IMG/VR virus record: IMGVR_UViG_3300030329_003261
Coordinates: 1-26,740 of that record
Source of the DNA: a virus
Length of the DNA stretch: 26,740 bases
Reading direction: 5' to 3' (one strand)
How positions within the stretch are numbered: the stretch's first letter is position 1; each line of letters opens with the position of its first letter. Of this stretch, positions 1,667 to 15,507 are shown piece after piece. The notes below the pieces were generated by a model that was not told the origin of the DNA, ran no database searches, and saw only the letters and a program-made list of their open reading frames with translations. Position numbers and translations under genes: made by a program.

Positions 1667-1966
1667 ATGAATTTCTCAGACGTTATGGACCGAATTACAC
1701 GATTGGAAGGAGCAAGGTCTGATGGAGAGATTGCTGATTATCTAGGGCAGACGAAGCAATCTTTTGCTGGCTACAAAAAGCGAGGGACGGTTCCCTTGCA
1801 GGAAGTCATTGACTACTGCATCAAGAATGAAAGGAGTGTTGATCATGTATTGTTTGGGACTGATCCTCCCTATGTGAATAGAGATCTTGAAAAAGAGAAT
1901 ATTGAACTCAAAGCACGACTCAAAGAAGTCAAACAATTACTCTTAGAGGTAATTAGAAAGGAATAG
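1667..1966 (+). CDS. cI: CI-family phage repressor, HTH domain with coiled-coil tail
   Basis: The protein has 99 aa. Residues 3-65 fit the bacteriophage CI repressor HTH family: FSDVMDRITRLEGARSDGEI, LGQTKQSFAGYKKRGTVPLQ, then YCIKNERSVDHVLFG. In this family the HTH binds operator half-sites, and the motif ending in LLTG or LFG closes the domain. The remainder (about residues 72-99) is a charged leucine-zipper-like helix, probably for oligomerisation, where many CI proteins have an S24 self-cleaving peptidase. The gene is thus much shorter than lambda-type CI (over 200 aa), and RecA-stimulated self-cleavage is not expected. It stands first in a rightward operon with a 107-aa protein and integrase. 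The operators at 1574-1635 are its likely targets. Confidence 0.85.
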   Translation: MNFSDVMDRITRLEGARSDGEIADYLGQTKQSFAGYKKRGTVPLQEVIDYCIKNERSVDHVLFGTDPPYVNRDLEKENIELKARLKEVKQLLLEVIRKE

Positions 1967-1973
1967 AAGCACT

Positions 1974-2297
1974 ATGGAATTTCATGAAATTCAGACGATT
2001 CAGTGTCCAACTAGACAGTCTTTTGATGCACATCGTGAGATTTGGGATGACATTAAATTGATAGCAGAAGAACACAATTGTTCTTTTGAATGGGAAGTCC
2101 TTTCAGAAGAAGAAAGGACTTACCGTCTTAATATTAAAGGAAACTCTAAAACCGAACAGATGAATGGTTTAATGAAAGTTGTTGAATTTTTGAATAAACA
2201 GGATATTGAACCTGCAATTGTGATTGAAACAGAGGATTTGAAAGAGACGAAAAAGTCCATCAAAAAGGCAATTGAAATATGCGAGGAGGTCGTATGA
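1974..2297 (+). CDS. unknown 107-aa protein between repressor and integrase
   Basis: I do not recognise this family. The protein is acidic, begins MEFHEIQTIQCPTRQSFDAH, and looks like an alpha/beta fold. A helix with WDDIKLIAEEHNCSFEW is followed by a strand-rich middle (ERTYRLNIKGNS), another helix and a long charged C-terminal helix. It starts 8 nt after the repressor stop, and its TGA stop overlaps the chosen integrase ATG (ATGA), so all three proteins should be co-produced. Position suggests a modulator of repressor or integrase, for example an antirepressor, co-repressor or recombination accessory factor. No motif decides between these. The rest of this window shows no similar protein by eye. 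Confidence 0.65.
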   Translation: MEFHEIQTIQCPTRQSFDAHREIWDDIKLIAEEHNCSFEWEVLSEEERTYRLNIKGNSKTEQMNGLMKVVEFLNKQDIEPAIVIETEDLKETKKSIKKAIEICEEVV

Positions 2298-3352
2298 GTG
2301 AATCCATTTTCTTCACACGAGGAAATCGGGTCTATGGGAGATTCTATGAGTTAATTCTCCCATCAGGCCAGTATAAGAAACTGAGTTTGTGTTCCATCAA
2401 GGAAAGGAACAAATACTCTGCAAAAGGGTCACCGTCCCAGAGGGATCGATTCCTGAATCGGCTCTATGAGGACAGACTGGAAAAGGAGTTGCAGAAGAAG
2501 AGTTCTGCTGCATCTGCAGATTCCATTCAGAAACTGATTCAGGATTTCATTGATAAGAAAGATCCTGACATTACAGTTCGAGGTCAGTTGGAATACTGGA
2601 TGAGGGAGTTACCCAAGATCAAAGCACAGGATGTGAAACCCTATGACATTGTTCAGGTCAAAGAGAAGCTGATGGACCGTGTTGGTCCTGCATCAGTCAA
2701 CCGATATCTGAGTGCAATATCTAAGGTCTACACCGTCTGTGTGGAGGAATGGTTCATCTTGGAGCAGAATCCTGTGAGGATTGTTCCAAAGCTTGAGGAG
2801 CCGAAAGGCAGGACCAGATTCTTGTCAAATGAGGAACGTCTCAGGTTGCTTTCAGAATGTCGCAAATCCTCCAATCCTGATCTTTATCTTGTGGTGATGC
2901 TTGCACTATCCACAGGAGGACGAGAGGGAGAAATCTGGGGTTTGAAATGGAGTGATGTGGATCTGAAAAATGGATCAGTCATATTCCGTGATACCAAAAA
3001 TGGAGATACCAGAAGGATCTCTTTTGATGGACCTGCCTTAACAGAGTTTCGGAACAAGATCAGAAGGATTGATACCGAACTGGTCTTCCCTGGAAAGTGG
3101 GATAAGAACAAACCTCGTAGTTTTCGCAAACCTTATGAACAGGCAGTTCAGGCTGCAGGATTGGAAGACTTTACGTTTCATGATCTCAGGCACACCTTTG
3201 CCAGTTACATGGCAATGGATGGTGCAACCTTGAGAGAGATTGCCGATGCTCTGGGTCACAGAACCCTGAACATGGTTATGAGATATTCACACCTGACTGA
3301 GGAGCATTCCAGTAAGGTTGTGAAAGGCATGAATCAAAGGATGCTTGCATAA
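2294..3352 (+). CDS. int: tyrosine recombinase, phage integrase
   Basis: The protein has 352 aa when started at ATG 2294, which follows GAGGAGGT by 3 nt and overlaps the preceding stop. The in-frame ATG at 2279 would place this ribosome site inside the gene. Residues about 1-70 form an arm-binding-like N-terminus and about 75-165 a core-binding SAM-like domain. The catalytic domain has all expected residues: Arg 210 in STGGREGEIWGLKW, Lys 235 in the beta-hairpin, His 296 and Arg 299 in HDLRHTFAS, His 322 in LGHRTLN, and the nucleophile Tyr 331 in RYSHL. It integrates phage DNA by recombining attP with a host tRNA attB. The attP core lies about 90 bp downstream, the usual int-attP order. All residues needed for activity are present. 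Confidence 0.95.
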   Translation: MSESIFFTRGNRVYGRFYELILPSGQYKKLSLCSIKERNKYSAKGSPSQRDRFLNRLYEDRLEKELQKKSSAASADSIQKLIQDFIDKKDPDITVRGQLEYWMRELPKIKAQDVKPYDIVQVKEKLMDRVGPASVNRYLSAISKVYTVCVEEWFILEQNPVRIVPKLEEPKGRTRFLSNEERLRLLSECRKSSNPDLYLVVMLALSTGGREGEIWGLKWSDVDLKNGSVIFRDTKNGDTRRISFDGPALTEFRNKIRRIDTELVFPGKWDKNKPRSFRKPYEQAVQAAGLEDFTFHDLRHTFASYMAMDGATLREIADALGHRTLNMVMRYSHLTEEHSSKVVKGMNQRMLA

Positions 3353-3355
3353 TTT

Positions 3356-3379
3356 TAATATCACTTTTGATAACAGTTG
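3356..3379 (+). repeat. left arm-type repeats (degenerate)
   Basis: TAATATCACTTTTGATAACAGTT begins just after the integrase stop and resembles the right-hand pair TGATATCACTGATATCAGTT, with one change per unit and a 3-bp longer spacer. It is a probable integrase arm-binding site. Confidence 0.5.
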
Positions 3380-3383
3380 ATGT

Positions 3384-3516
3384 TTTACTCCCAATTTACC
3401 AAGTCATATCAATGCTCTACACAATCAGAGCATCTCTCTTTTAATCAGGTGGCCCTGGGTTCGAGTCCCAGCCGACCCACCAATTTATTGAGTGATTTCA
3501 GTAGATTGGGAGTAAA
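3384..3516. repeat. 12-bp inverted repeat bracketing the attP core
   Basis: TTTACTCCCAAT at 3384-3395 is the exact reverse complement of ATTGGGAGTAAA at 3505-3516. The two copies lie 42 bp before and 22 bp after the tRNA core. They could bind a bending or directionality factor symmetrically. Confidence 0.6.
3438..3482 (+). other. attP: attP core, 3' part of tRNA-Lys(UUU)
   Basis: From the anticodon loop onward the sequence reads as a tRNA. CTTTTAA loop (anticodon TTT at 3440-3442), 3' anticodon-stem strand TCAGG, variable loop TGGCC, T-arm CTGGG-TTCGAGT-CCCAG (3455-3471), acceptor strand CCGACCC, A73 and an encoded CCA at 3480-3482. The 5' acceptor strand GGGTCGG is absent upstream, so this is not a functional gene. 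Tyrosine integrases commonly use such 3' tRNA segments so that the host tRNA is rebuilt on integration. The predicted attB is a host tRNA-Lys gene. Confidence 0.88.
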
Positions 3517-3534
3517 CAAGGTTTTAGTCTAGAA

Positions 3535-3592
3535 TGATATCACTGATATCAGTTCCCACGATTTCGGGGTTTTTGATATCAGTTTGATATCA
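3535..3592 (+). repeat. right arm-type repeats, four copies of TGATATCA
   Basis: The palindrome TGATATCA occurs at 3535-3542, 3544-3551, 3574-3581 and 3585-3592. Each copy is followed by CACT or CAGTT, giving two paired units. Repeated short sites flanking a tRNA core are expected for integrase N-domain (arm) or accessory-protein binding. The last copy overlaps the stop of the small gene at 3590. Confidence 0.6.
3555..3574 (+). terminator. candidate intrinsic terminator for the integrase operon
   Basis: CCCACGATTTCGGGG can fold into a short GC stem (five pairs with one bulged A and an ATTT loop) and is followed by five Ts. It lies 200 bp past the integrase stop, within the arm repeats, so the integrase transcript would include the attP core. 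The stem is short, so the call is tentative. Confidence 0.35.
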
Positions 3593-3739
3593 CTTTTTAC
3601 CCTCCTCACCTACCTTAAAATCAGGATCATCGTACCTGAGATCAGGCCAGCAAGGTTCATAATTGGTGTAATCTAGAGGATCATCTTCAGTGTCTGGTGG
3701 AGGAGTAGAGGTTGTTTCCCACCTTTGCGTTTTAATCAA
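3590..3739 (-). CDS. possible small acidic protein, 49 aa, TTG start
   Basis: The frame starts at TTG 3739, 8 nt after AGGGG, and ends in TGA at 3590-3592 inside an arm repeat. It is Pro- and Asp-rich (TSTPPPDTEDDPLDYTNYEP, then CWPDLRYDDPDFK) and ends in Lys. It directly follows the endolysin and would be the last gene of the late operon. There is no signal sequence or TM segment, so it does not look like a spanin. The composition looks like genuine protein, but the start codon is weak. Function unknown. Confidence 0.4.
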   Translation of the reverse strand: MIKTQRWETTSTPPPDTEDDPLDYTNYEPCWPDLRYDDPDFKVGEEGKK

Positions 3740-4537: not shown

Positions 4538-4885
4538 TTAGTTATCACTTTTTTCCTCGTCATTGTGTGGTGGTATTTCATGCTTTTCTGGCTCTTGAGC
4601 TAAGTCACCACCTGACTCAAAATAAAATTTTGCAATACCTGCAATGATAGGAATGAAGGCTCCTATCAAAATGTTCAACAAATCCTTGCTAGAAGAAGGT
4701 AGTTCTGCAGAAGCACCCAACATTATGTGTACTACATAAGCAAATATGCCTAATGCTGATATGGCAATGGCAAATCTAGCTATAAATCGACTCACCTGAA
4801 TCCTCTCATTAACCGTCATCACAGGTTTCATCGGTTTAGGAGGATCTGGTTTTGTAACTGTTGTTACAGTTGTTTCTTTAGCCAT
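4538..4885 (-). CDS. two-TM membrane protein, candidate holin
   Basis: The protein has 115 aa, and ATG 4885 follows AAGGAAGTAA. A Pro- and Lys-rich N-terminal tail (about 30 aa) is followed by two hydrophobic helices, IAISALGIFAYVVHIML (about residues 39-57) and LLNILIGAFIPIIAGIAKFY (about 70-89). It ends with an acidic soluble C-terminus. This size and topology fit class II holins, which permeabilise the inner membrane to release or activate endolysin. No family-specific motif was recognised. The start touches the stop of the upstream one-TM gene. It could instead be a structural membrane protein, but the endolysin two genes away favours lysis. Confidence 0.6.
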   Translation of the reverse strand: MAKETTVTTVTKPDPPKPMKPVMTVNERIQVSRFIARFAIAISALGIFAYVVHIMLGASAELPSSSKDLLNILIGAFIPIIAGIAKFYFESGGDLAQEPEKHEIPPHNDEEKSDN

Positions 4886-5227
4886 TTACTTCCTTATTAA
4901 CGCTGATGCCATGCCTTTAATCTCATCTGCTAATCTTTCATTTGACTTAGTTACATCTTTATTTGAGATAGTTAAATTGCTAATAGCTTCAGCAAAATGT
5001 TCATTTCTAGCATTCTGTTCTTTAATTACATCTATAAGCCTAGAATCACCTTCCGAATCCTTATTTTCCCACCTTACTATTTCATCCCTGTGAGCCTGCT
5101 GAGTTTTCATTATGTAATAGAAACAAAATCCAATAATAACTGCTGGCAGTCCTATTCTTTCTACCAATATCATTACTTGATCTATTTCCATTATGCTTTG
5201 TGGTGCAGGAGGATGATGTCCACTCAT
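4886..5227 (-). CDS. one-TM coiled-coil protein, BhlA-holin-like or spanin-like
   Basis: The protein has 113 aa. After a short N-terminus (MSGHHPPAPQSIMEIDQVM) comes a single TM helix (IGLPAVIIGFCFYYIM, about residues 26-41). Then follows a long charged, coiled-coil-like domain with heptad-like spacing to the C-terminus. MEIDQVMILV before the TM and a basic segment after it recall BhlA/UviB-type holin-like proteins. The same layout is also seen in inner-membrane spanins. Its ATG overlaps the stop of the 54-aa gene (ATGA) and its stop touches the two-TM gene, so the three are translated together. No outer-membrane lipoprotein partner was found nearby, which weakens the spanin option. Confidence 0.55.
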   Translation of the reverse strand: MSGHHPPAPQSIMEIDQVMILVERIGLPAVIIGFCFYYIMKTQQAHRDEIVRWENKDSEGDSRLIDVIKEQNARNEHFAEAISNLTISNKDVTKSNERLADEIKGMASALIRK

Positions 5228-10496: not shown

Positions 10497-12364
10497 TAAG
10501 TCCTCATCACACAGTCTGCAGCAGCACGGTATGCCTGTGCTTGCCTGTCCACATCAGCAACCATCTGGTCCATTTCTGCCAGATCCTTTGCATCCTGTTC
10601 CGTCAGTTCACTTTCTCGTGCAGCAATTTCCAGATCAATGTTCTCTTCTTCCAGTTCAAACTCGTTGCGAACTGGAGTCTCATCAACTGGAGGAAGTGGG
10701 TCTGCAGAGGTTGCTTCGTTGAATTGGGTAAATTCTGGATCAAAGACAGATTTGGATTGGTTTGGGTCTACTGTGAAAAGGACTGTCCCATCACTGTAAT
10801 CATCAAACCCTGATTCTGAAGAACGAACTGCATCATATCCTTGCTTTTTAAACCACTCTGCTCCTTTTTGTCTTATTTCTCTTGAATCCAAAATCTCTGG
10901 GTAAATATTTTTCACATTGAGGAAACGAGGATAAATGGCTCCTTGAGTGCTTATTTCTTCAAAGCCTTCTTTTAACTTTTTTGCTAATGTTTCTGCTTTA
11001 ATATTTTCTGTCTTTATTGGCTTATTATTTTTATCAGTAAGCTCATTATTTTTAATTGATTTTTTGACATCATCATCAAGCAGCCTTTGTAGATTTAAAA
11101 CATCACCTGTTTCTTTATCAAAAACATCTGGATAGCGTTCATGTAAGGCTTTGTAACCACCTCTTTTAAAATTATATTCGCCACTTGTTTTTTGAGACCA
11201 GTTTGCAATACCAAAGTATCTCCCTTTTTCTGCAAATTCTGCTGCAAACTTTGGGTTACTTGTAAAAGGGATCATGCCATTTGAATCTGGTCCTGCGACT
11301 ATGGTTTCAAACTGATCTCCGTCTCTCTGAACCGTTCCGTGATACCAAGTCTGCAAAGTCCCATCTTCATTGTTGAGAACAGAATCTTGGAAAGAACCTC
11401 GAATCATCCCAGACGGTGCCCCATCCATAGTTGAGGTGTCGATCTCAACTTGGTTTAAAACTCTTGCTGCATCCACAGTCTGGCCTGATGCCATCTGAGC
11501 ATGAGCCAACGATACTGCCATCACTCGTGACTGTGGAGGAACATGAGCAATACCCTTATAAATGCTTTGTTTTAATCCTCTATAAAACTCTTCTCTTGCT
11601 CCCAACCATGCTTGTTCCTGTGAAGAATTAAGCAATGCTCCCATTTCCTCTTGAAGATCCTGCTTTGCTTGTGCCTTGATTTGATCTTCATTAAGACCTC
11701 TGTATGGAGGAGTAGGATCATCAGGATGAATCCTGCCAAAGATCGAACCCAGTCCTACACCAATTCCTGCACCAATCCCAACATCAATAAGTGCCATAGA
11801 GATGTCATACTCCTCTTGGTATGCACCTTTTTCCAATGCAAACAAAGGATGAAATGCTGCAGTTCCAATTGCTGCTTCTGCACCTCCACGGAGTGCTGCT
11901 CTTCCTCTTGTGGTTGCATCAATCAGAGACTTTGCCTGCTTCCCCTTCTTTGCAAATCCCAACCATGGAATAAAGTTGATGGGATCAGGAATAGAGCCGA
12001 TGAACATACCACCAAAGATTGCTCCATAATCTCCTAGTGAATCTGCTCTTGCTGCCAACTGACCATAGCTCATGGAACGGTCATATCGTTCTGCCAGCAA
12101 TCTTGCCTGACCCTCTGTCATCTGTTCCTCGAACTTCAATCCTTCACGGAAAAACTCAGAACTTTGCCACTGTTCCTCGTTTTCATAAATTGTCCCTCCT
12201 GCATACTGTAATTCAGAATAAGACCTTGCGAGGTTGGGAGTCAGTTGACGGATTCCTTCCATGAGAGACTCACCAAAGAGAACAGACATAGAAGGATCAT
12301 ACTGGAGTCCAAACTGCTCCATTCCTCCTGATGTGGGTATTTCCTCATCTGTGTAGTAGGGCAT
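10496..12364 (-). CDS. internal/ejection protein with ADP-ribosyltransferase-like domain
   Basis: The protein has 622 aa. The N-terminal half contains a helical region and a Gly/Ala-rich hydrophobic stretch (ISMALIDVGIGAGIGVGLGS, about residues 188-207). Residues about 338-545 resemble ADP-ribosyltransferase domains of phage polyvalent proteins: WYHGT at 340-344 (the H-x-T position), FTSNPKFAAEFAEKG at 367-381, YPRFLNVKNIYPE at 478-490, DAVRSSESG, and the typical ending TVDPNQSKSVFDPEF at 531-545. About 90 residues with Lys/Asn-rich sequence appear inserted within the domain (about 390-475). The C-terminus is a charged helix. Such domains can modify host proteins after entering with phage DNA. 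Position among internal proteins supports delivery with the genome. Catalytic activity is inferred only. Confidence 0.68.
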   Translation of the reverse strand: MPYYTDEEIPTSGGMEQFGLQYDPSMSVLFGESLMEGIRQLTPNLARSYSELQYAGGTIYENEEQWQSSEFFREGLKFEEQMTEGQARLLAERYDRSMSYGQLAARADSLGDYGAIFGGMFIGSIPDPINFIPWLGFAKKGKQAKSLIDATTRGRAALRGGAEAAIGTAAFHPLFALEKGAYQEEYDISMALIDVGIGAGIGVGLGSIFGRIHPDDPTPPYRGLNEDQIKAQAKQDLQEEMGALLNSSQEQAWLGAREEFYRGLKQSIYKGIAHVPPQSRVMAVSLAHAQMASGQTVDAARVLNQVEIDTSTMDGAPSGMIRGSFQDSVLNNEDGTLQTWYHGTVQRDGDQFETIVAGPDSNGMIPFTSNPKFAAEFAEKGRYFGIANWSQKTSGEYNFKRGGYKALHERYPDVFDKETGDVLNLQRLLDDDVKKSIKNNELTDKNNKPIKTENIKAETLAKKLKEGFEEISTQGAIYPRFLNVKNIYPEILDSREIRQKGAEWFKKQGYDAVRSSESGFDDYSDGTVLFTVDPNQSKSVFDPEFTQFNEATSADPLPPVDETPVRNEFELEEENIDLEIAARESELTEQDAKDLAEMDQMVADVDRQAQAYRAAADCVMRT

Positions 12365-15300
12365 TACTTACCAAGCTTTATGAGATATTGTTCTGCTTCT
12401 AATGTGTCCATCTTCATCAACTTATCAATTTCATCTTGAGGAAGTTTCATCCGTTTATATTCCGTCAACCGTGCTTGGTCAAACATGGATAATGTCTTCT
12501 TTGCAACTTCCTCTTTTTTCTCTTCCTGCTTCCCTAATTCATCCCTGAGACGTTCCTGTTCTTTTGCTTCTGCTTCTGCTTCTTGTTGTTCTTCTATCTT
12601 TTGCTTTTCTAATCTTTCTTCTCTTCTCTTCTGTATTTTTGCTTCTTTTGCAGGACGTAAGTCGATTGGAGTAGCATCCAGATCCATATTTTCTGCAGTC
12701 TGTTGGACTCTTTCTGCAGAGAAGAATTGATAGTTCTCAAATGCCTTTATGGTTCCATCAATCCACTCTTTCACAGGTCTATCTCTGTTGTCTGTGATTC
12801 CTCGTAACTGCTCCCAACTTAGGGTTGTGGTCTTTCCTTGATATAATGCAGGTTCTTGTATGCCTGTTTGTTTGTTGTAAAAAGTCAGTATCATTCCAGA
12901 CTCATCTGCATTGGTCTTCCACTGGTACAAGTCATCTCCAGTTTCAATACCTAAAATTGATGCATCATCTTCTAACCTAACAAAATTCCAGTTTTGGTCA
13001 TTCTTCCGTTTTTGCAACAAACCTTTTGTGAACTGCACCAATCCTGTTTCTGCATCTTTTGGATCTCTTCCTTCCAACTCTCCTGCAGGTATCCTGACAG
13101 TCACATTATCACCAGACCCTCCTGGTATAACTTCGTAAAGGTCTTTCACAAGGTGACGGAAGACGGATGCATGATTCTCGTCTTCATTAATAAGTTTTTT
13201 TGTTTTTAAAGAAGGATTTTGGCTTTTAAGTTGAAGAGCATAATCAACATACATATCCAGCAATGCAGTCTTATCCTGACCATTTCGGTAAAATGTTTTA
13301 AAAAATTGTTCAAATTCTTTAGTTCTTCCAATCTCAGTTCTTAGTTCTTCATAACTTTCAAAATCACCATCCATAATTACTGCAGCATTCTTCTTATTTT
13401 CATCCCTATTCTTTTGTGCAGTATTTAAGTTTTCTAAGACACTAGGATCTTGAATAACCAAGTACATTTGGTCGGCTCTGGTAAAGCCTTTCATCTTAAA
13501 CATTTGTTGCAATGCTACTGAGCCATAATCACCATATTGCTTTAGCATATTTTGCAAGTATGTTTTCTTTTCAATACCAGAACCTGTTTCTGTAATTGCA
13601 TTCCATTCTGTTTCTACTTTTTCTGCCATTCCTTTAGTCCAAATGGACAATTCACCTTTTGCAACACGTCTGGTCAGTTCTCTTGCAGATGGAAAATTTT
13701 GAGGTTCTGCTGATGCACCAAAATCAATTTCACCCTTCCAGTTTAATTGATCAGTAAGTATCACCATCAATCCATCTTCAGAAAAAGGATTAAGGTCACG
13801 GTCTGATACTTTTTGAAAACCAACTGCAGCCTTGTCCTGACTTCTCAGTTTTCTCACTTCTGCAGTTGCACCCAGGAATCCCTTGTAGATGCCATCCATG
13901 ACATTTCTTTTAAAAATCTCTGTCTCAGATGTGCCGAAATCCATGTTGCTAGGATTCAGTTTGCTTTCAACCTCCTTCATCCCTTGACTGGAAAGCATCT
14001 TAAAATCGCCAGCACCTTTACGGACCTCCATTCCGTATTGGTACAAAATCTTATATTGGTCTAATTCCCACTTTTTAATGTTTCTTTCACCAAGATGCTG
14101 GTCTATGTATTCAGGATCTAAAACCTTTTGTATTTCTGTAATATCAACATTTGGATCTAAAATAATCCGTAATCCTGCATCCAGTTGTTTAAACACAAGG
14201 TCACGGTCTGCAACTTTTTTGTCATCTAATGCTTTTTGTGCCTTAGTTATAAAATCCTGCCTCACTCCTCCTTGGATTGTAGGATAAAAACCACCAGTGT
14301 TTGCTTCTAGATCCTCCCATTGTGCTAACACAGATCCATAGTTTTCAGGTCTCTTGCTTAAAGCAAGTTCACCCTTGTTATTAAGCTGAATGTCATGTTC
14401 TTTAAAAAACTTAATTTTGTCAGCAACAGTGATTGGTTCTGTACTTAGTCTTTGAAGGGCAAGTTCAGGATTATCACCAATATCTGTTTTCACATCGTTG
14501 AGGTCGATGAGATTGCGAACTGCCAGTTTTCTTTTAGGGCCATCTCTGTGATGTACATATCCTGCTGCGACTGCAATATCGATCAACTTTTCTGCAGGAG
14601 CAATTCTGGAATCAACTCTCTCATCTCCATCTCGTCTTCTAAAACCTGGATCTGTTAATGCACTGGTTTGGACTTGTTCCAGAAACTCTTGTTCCCACAA
14701 TCCTGATGCAGTAGAACTTTTAATTAGGTTGTGATGTTCTAATGCTTTGGTCTTAAAATTCAGTACATCAGATGCAGCCTGGAGACGGATACGGTCCCTT
14801 ATGTAAGGACTTTCAATCTTCCTTTCATTCAGTATTTGCTCAATCCGATTATCCGACCATTGTGTGACATAGTTGGTTGTAAATTCTTCCAATCCTATGT
14901 TGTGACCATTTCCTTCACCCTGTTCGTTTTTGTTGAATTGAGGATTTTGTATGTTTCCTAATTGCTCACTTAAACTTTCTCGAATTGAGTTTAAAACTGT
15001 GTTGGTCTGGAGGTCATTATCCATCCCATAAGCCTGCTTCAATGCCTTGACTTCACCGCTTTCCATTTTTGCTCTAAGAAGAGCCATCAGTTTGGGACGG
15101 TCTTCAGGATGGACACTTTGGACATCTGGCCCCTTACTCAATCCCATTAAAGTATTGTGAGTAAACTCAAACCATCCTTCTTCAACTTGTGTAGGAGTTA
15201 ATCCTGCTTGGTAATCTGCAATTATTTGTTTTTCAATTTTTGTATTAAGTTCTCTCATAGCACTAGGTGCTGACTCATCCCATTGACGTTTCCTTAAACG

Positions 15301-15507
15301 TGTACTTTCTGATGCAATGATTTTCCCTGCAGTTGTTGCAAGGTCCATAACCGTGTCACCAAGTTTTTGCCGTGCAATGTTTTCACTGAGAAGCACATCA
15401 CTGATCTTATTCTCAGGTGCAGGAACATCCTGGAATGCAGGAACATCATAAACCTGTTCAACAGGACGTAACTCCTGTTCAAATTGTCTGAATTTGATCC
15501 GTGCCAT
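12364..15507 (-). CDS. very large internal virion protein, 1047 aa
   Basis: This is the largest product in the window. It starts MARIKFRQFEQELRPVEQVY and is almost entirely charged and helical, with few Cys residues and no TM segment. A strong coiled-coil, Glu/Lys/Gln-rich, lies near residues 957-1005 (RREERLEKQKIEEQQEAEAE followed by more). Size and position between tail tubular B/gp14-like genes and the other internal proteins match T7-type core proteins that form the ejection tube. No enzymatic motif was recognised. The start overlaps the upstream stop by TAATG. Parts of the gene (about 13140-13530) are visibly more AT-rich than the capsid genes. Confidence 0.7.
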   Translation of the reverse strand: MARIKFRQFEQELRPVEQVYDVPAFQDVPAPENKISDVLLSENIARQKLGDTVMDLATTAGKIIASESTRLRKRQWDESAPSAMRELNTKIEKQIIADYQAGLTPTQVEEGWFEFTHNTLMGLSKGPDVQSVHPEDRPKLMALLRAKMESGEVKALKQAYGMDNDLQTNTVLNSIRESLSEQLGNIQNPQFNKNEQGEGNGHNIGLEEFTTNYVTQWSDNRIEQILNERKIESPYIRDRIRLQAASDVLNFKTKALEHHNLIKSSTASGLWEQEFLEQVQTSALTDPGFRRRDGDERVDSRIAPAEKLIDIAVAAGYVHHRDGPKRKLAVRNLIDLNDVKTDIGDNPELALQRLSTEPITVADKIKFFKEHDIQLNNKGELALSKRPENYGSVLAQWEDLEANTGGFYPTIQGGVRQDFITKAQKALDDKKVADRDLVFKQLDAGLRIILDPNVDITEIQKVLDPEYIDQHLGERNIKKWELDQYKILYQYGMEVRKGAGDFKMLSSQGMKEVESKLNPSNMDFGTSETEIFKRNVMDGIYKGFLGATAEVRKLRSQDKAAVGFQKVSDRDLNPFSEDGLMVILTDQLNWKGEIDFGASAEPQNFPSARELTRRVAKGELSIWTKGMAEKVETEWNAITETGSGIEKKTYLQNMLKQYGDYGSVALQQMFKMKGFTRADQMYLVIQDPSVLENLNTAQKNRDENKKNAAVIMDGDFESYEELRTEIGRTKEFEQFFKTFYRNGQDKTALLDMYVDYALQLKSQNPSLKTKKLINEDENHASVFRHLVKDLYEVIPGGSGDNVTVRIPAGELEGRDPKDAETGLVQFTKGLLQKRKNDQNWNFVRLEDDASILGIETGDDLYQWKTNADESGMILTFYNKQTGIQEPALYQGKTTTLSWEQLRGITDNRDRPVKEWIDGTIKAFENYQFFSAERVQQTAENMDLDATPIDLRPAKEAKIQKRREERLEKQKIEEQQEAEAEAKEQERLRDELGKQEEKKEEVAKKTLSMFDQARLTEYKRMKLPQDEIDKLMKMDTLEAEQYLIKLGK

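Follow-up and report, generated by a model that had tools for sequence, protein, structure and literature searches.

The virus record that forms the window is 26,740 bases long and has been classified as a linear fragment. Its plus strand carries a short cassette in the order CI-like helix-turn-helix gene, 107-aa ORF, tyrosine integrase gene and then a 45-bp core (Table 1), and all other recognisable genes are located on the minus strand. A Sak4-like protein is encoded at the left end of the window. To the right of the core are genes for an M15-type endolysin, a tail fibre, internal virion proteins and tail proteins, followed further right by the capsid, the head-tail adaptor and the large terminase. 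The integrase has its whole catalytic set, R209-K234-H295-R298-H321-Y330 (numbered from the residue coded at 2297), and all of these residues are invariant in six integrase relatives. In the virion region, positions 12364-15507 encode a 1047-aa protein without a PHROGs or Pfam match; the DNA identity of this region between close relatives is 65%, compared with about 90% for its neighbours.

Table 1 Coordinates of the integration cassette, the core and its flanks. Distances are counted from the first base of the core; L007 and L008 are contigs of a close relative and of a sister phage.
Feature	Position	Strand	Remark
99-aa CI-like helix-turn-helix protein (repressor or excisionase-like)	1667..1966	+	
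107-aa ORF, weak match to phage repressor family	1974..2297	+	overlaps integrase start (ATGA)
Tyrosine integrase	2294..3352	+	PF00589, E=1.8e-30
Candidate arm-type site TAATATCACTT	3356..3366	+	-82 from core
Candidate arm-type site TGATAACAGTT	3368..3378	+	-70 from core
16-bp inverted repeat on either side of core	3384-3399 / 3501-3516	.	in L007, not in L008
Extra upstream identity to host tRNA, AGAGCATCT, 9 bp	3427..3435	+	two mismatched bases before core
attP identity core: tRNA-Lys(UUU) 3' segment, anticodon loop to CCA	3438..3482	+	exact identity to host tRNA
Predicted strand-exchange (overlap) region CTTTTAA	3438..3444	+	at most unrelated attP sites, left limit of tRNA identity is here or within a few bases; cut positions predicted
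Core part: anticodon loop CTTTTAA, 7 bp	3438-3444	+	
Core part: 3' anticodon stem	3445-3449		
Core part: variable loop	3450-3454		
Core part: T-arm	3455-3471		
Core part: acceptor 3' strand	3472-3478		
Core part: discriminator A	3479		
Core part: CCA	3480-3482		
Candidate arm-type sites TGATATCACTGATATCAGTT	3535..3554	+	+97, +106 from core
Candidate arm-type site pair TGATATCAGTTTGATATCACTT	3574..3595	+	+136, +147 from core

The core reads CTTTTAATCAGGTGGCCCTGGGTTCGAGTCCCAGCCGACCCACCA and starts after a gap of 85 bp from the end of the integrase gene. No complete tRNA was called in the window by ARAGORN, and a tRNA-Lys 5' half was absent from the whole window even when up to 3 mismatches were allowed, which ruled out a permuted tRNA with its 5' half elsewhere in the window. 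No other window position has even a 14-mer in common with the core, and Rfam gave only chance-level matches there. The first-pass annotation had described a 45-bp 3' segment of tRNA-Lys(UUU) without a matching 5' half, an intact tyrosine integrase ending about 90 bp away and phage genes on both sides, and had taken the whole for a free-form attP. Our results agree with this description: the segment has exactly the limits 3438-3482, the integrase keeps all catalytic residues, the core has Sak4 and the integrase on its left side and the endolysin and virion genes on its right, and it is single in the window. The segment is best read as an attP of the ordinary kind for a tyrosine integrase.

Repeated sites sharing the candidate motif TGATATCAST were observed on both sides of the core. 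With at most one mismatch, TGATATCASTT was found 11 times in the window (1.96 expected), a number reached in 0 of 100 shuffles, and 8 of the 11 matches fall within 3356-3595. The distances of the sites from the core are identical in the window lineage and the L008 lineage, and the register -82, -70, +97, +106, +136, +147 is common to the window, L007 and L008. Despite this kept register, sequence identity between the window and L008 is only 73% from the integrase to position 3595. A fixed register round the core is the pattern that putative arm-type sites for the integrase or an excisionase would show.

Comparison with 84,980 species genomes found the exact 45-mer on 2 contigs. One belongs to the MAG SAR324 cluster bacterium lautmerah10, in which the 45-mer is part of an intact tRNA-Lys(ttt) gene located downstream of MurF-like and Mrp-like genes (named from their translations by inspection), with the start of another integrase coming next. 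The other contig, 6.4 kb long and binned as Opitutia, carries a half-tRNA without its 5' part. Because this half-tRNA adjoins an integrase (PF00589, E=8.2e-31) and phage-like genes, the contig looks like a probable mobile element in the wrong bin; under its accession, NZKO01000096.1, the SAR324-type half-tRNA and the integrase beside it occupy L012:270-1533. A tRNA-Lys(UUU) gene had been predicted as the host attB, and a bacterial tRNA-Lys identical over 3438-3482 does exist, in SAR324, the single MAG lautmerah10 holding the one intact gene with the exact window allele. By this match in sequence, SAR324 is the likely host of the phage.

A second allele was found in a sister phage, which is represented by three contigs (L008-L010) with the same arrangement as in the window and an integrase 81% identical to the window integrase. 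The core of the sister phage, CTTTTAATCAGGTGGTCCGGGGTTCGAGACCCCGCCGACCCACCA, differs from the window core at four positions, three of them in the T-arm, and two of those form a compensated stem pair. Four further SAR324 genomes have exactly this allele in their tRNA-Lys(ttt). Since two related phages have two alleles and each is exact in SAR324, both lead to SAR324, and the two alleles suggest that the phages track host species. The close relative (L006/L007), whose integrase is 87% identical, has the exact 45-mer of the window.

The same tRNA is also used by other elements. The exact 45-mer occurs in five other viral contigs, each with an integrase beside the core. Apart from L006/L007, the contigs with the 45-mer form three types (L002/L056 with L004; L003; and L005), whose integrases are 22-24% identical to that of the window, and the Opitutia-binned contig is a fourth further type of element with an integrase 32% identical to it. 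At most of the unrelated attP sites the tRNA identity begins at the anticodon loop or a few bases before it, and in L002/L004 it reaches back to GGTAGAGCATCTGA. In SAR324 genomes, too, elements other than the window phage occupy the tRNA-Lys site: an integrase lies directly downstream of tRNA-Lys in two of them (G014 and G042), and displaced core copies without the 5' half, then host-like genes, are found in two more (G021 and G023). More distant integrase relatives (L070 and L072) adjoin tRNA-Lys(UUU) halves with other T-arms. These halves, together with the several integrase types at the core, indicate that tRNA-Lys(UUU) is a recurrent target, both at this core and more widely in the integrase family. 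Contig L003 has the same att core and otherwise represents a different phage; it was also observed to share about 330 bp at 70% identity (L003:1636-2207) with window 4566-5163, including a 34-bp exact stretch, which suggests that phages of a single host have exchanged genes close to the lysis region.

In the proposed mechanism, the tyrosine integrase would recombine the 45-bp attP core with the tRNA-Lys(UUU) gene of a marine bacterium from the SAR324 clade, with strand exchange in the anticodon loop or beside it. The phage-borne tRNA 3' half would replace the displaced 3' half of the host gene, and the host would therefore keep a working tRNA-Lys. When recombination was carried out in silico, on short junction fragments, ARAGORN called a complete tRNA-Lys at attL and none at attR. 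In Haemophilus phage HP1, whose integrase is the top solved-structure match for the window integrase, strand exchange takes place in the anticodon loop of a tRNA and arm sites flank the core; HP1 differs from the window phage in its tRNA, in the low identity of its integrase and in its unrelated virion. We consider it highly probable that the 45 bp are the attP core and that the integrase targets the SAR324 tRNA-Lys(UUU) at the anticodon loop, with the host tRNA kept. The recombination and its exact cuts, binding of the repeats by the integrase (or an excisionase), the SAR324 host and lysogeny are what we infer from these data, and the CI-like gene beside the integrase is compatible with true lysogeny.

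Searches with portal, capsid and integrase found no integrated copy of the window phage in 52 SAR324 genomes: the portal had no match, the capsid one weak fragment, and the integrase matched related integrases only. The capsid fragment, from a related major capsid protein, lies at a contig edge (L225:4900-5688) in a genome of the SAR324 phylum (G006) and adjoins a transposase-like ORF and gcvP-like genes, so that a prophage remnant or a chimeric contig is possible.

Other readings of the segment were weighed against the attP interpretation. A half-tRNA by an integrase could be a displaced prophage junction, as seems to be the case for L033 and L035, and the segment would then be one end, attL or attR, of a prophage in the assembly and not a free attP. 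We regard this as very improbable, since phage genes flank the core on both sides, a relative contig runs from TerL through the replication genes to the same attP with no host genes, and the composite of the window with this relative (L052) would close at TerL into a ring of ~36 kb, by synteny and not as an assembly. That the segment has decayed into a relic, or is a tRNA fragment encoded by the phage that plays no part in integration, is scarcely credible: it is incomplete and not called as a tRNA, but its identity to the host is 100% over 45 bp, the integrase is intact, the flanking repeats are kept in register, and unrelated integrases reuse the same core.

A genuine attP might also belong to a phage of another uncultured bacterium that shares the tRNA-Lys allele with SAR324. 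The conservation of tRNA genes, the many MAGs without tRNA contigs and the location of one of the two genome matches on an Opitutia-binned contig would allow this, and the genome scan covered contigs of at least 3 kb. Hosts outside GTDB could also share the allele. Such a host is nevertheless unlikely, because the sole intact tRNA with the 45-mer is from SAR324, the second allele, from the sister phage, is also an exact match to SAR324, and the Opitutia contig looks like a mis-binned mobile element.

Megablast of the window against 50,697 phage records gave no match. By identity of the capsid and portal proteins, HTVC010P-type pelagiphages are nearest among cultured phages; HTVC010P, HTVC028P, Lederberg and Baldr share 42-47% identity with the window phage in the capsid and 34-38% in the portal. 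Their genome size, ~35 kb, is similar, whereas their host is SAR11 and that predicted for the window phage is SAR324. The window integrase has no close relative in sequenced phages, the best among the matches listed being 31% identical. Around the capsid genes of 80 capsid relatives no integrase was found beside the capsid gene, in loci that reach only 10 kb from it; with the two genes 17 kb apart, an integrase would fall outside these loci.

The phage had been called T7-like, a label that fits only its virion genes and fails for those of replication and transcription. T7-type virion genes are present, including the head-tail adaptor (phrog_332), tail proteins (phrog_394 and phrog_376) and internal virion proteins (phrog_684 and phrog_342). 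Its replication genes do not resemble those of T7, and a search for a single-subunit RNA polymerase (PF00940) detected none in the window or in four relative records. Because the PF00940 control likewise gave no match, the absence is argued from the ORF inventory of L052, a sister-phage contig that starts within the large terminase and continues with the small terminase, primase-helicase, Sak4 and integrase; across its 9 kb from TerL to Sak4, the primase-helicase is the sole ORF of at least 300 aa. This 730-aa primase-helicase (L052:5061-7253) has an NrS-1 polymerase-type HBD domain and a DUF3987. The first-pass annotation had also held a T7-type virion with integration machinery to be uncommon, a view that finds no support in T7-like cyanophages, in which 13 of 24 genomes have an integrase, 11 of the 13 with a tRNA-Leu attP (PMC8776855).

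Among marine podoviruses an integrase with a tRNA attP is a common feature, and similar pelagiphages that have both have been reported (PMC3861242). As in the window, P-SSP7, S-TIP37 and HTVC019P-like pelagiphages have an integrase followed by an exact tRNA copy of ~40-50 bp, together with a podovirus virion. They use tRNA-Leu, whereas the window phage has tRNA-Lys(UUU), and it further differs from them in its predicted SAR324 host, in the CI-like repressor gene beside the integrase and in that no RNA polymerase was found. Integration at the tRNA has been shown by experiment for S-TIP37 and P-SSP7 (PMC8776855, PMC3861242); two T7-like cyanophages integrate experimentally, and stable lysogens were not obtained (PMC8776855).

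SAR324 is an abundant, mostly uncultured ocean group to which few viruses have been tied. Hi-C links between viruses and SAR324 exist (PMC11694666), and hosts are by established practice named by comparing a phage half-tRNA with the host tRNA (PMC3861242, PMC4981710). The literature searched, whose coverage left out most subscription papers, yielded no description of a SAR324 prophage, of an attachment site in SAR324 or of an isolated SAR324 phage, and the SAR324 host link, which is well supported, is probably new. The useful result is this host assignment together with the tRNA-Lys hotspot, the kind of attP itself being already known. As a specific tag, present in one intact tRNA among 84,980 species, the 45-bp core links the window phage and several unrelated phages to SAR324. 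We lean towards the view that the window phage represents an undescribed temperate podovirus lineage of the uncultured SAR324 phylum and that tRNA-Lys(UUU) is a general SAR324 hotspot, reached independently by several unrelated integrase families, in which case the core allele would name SAR324 phages in metagenomes.
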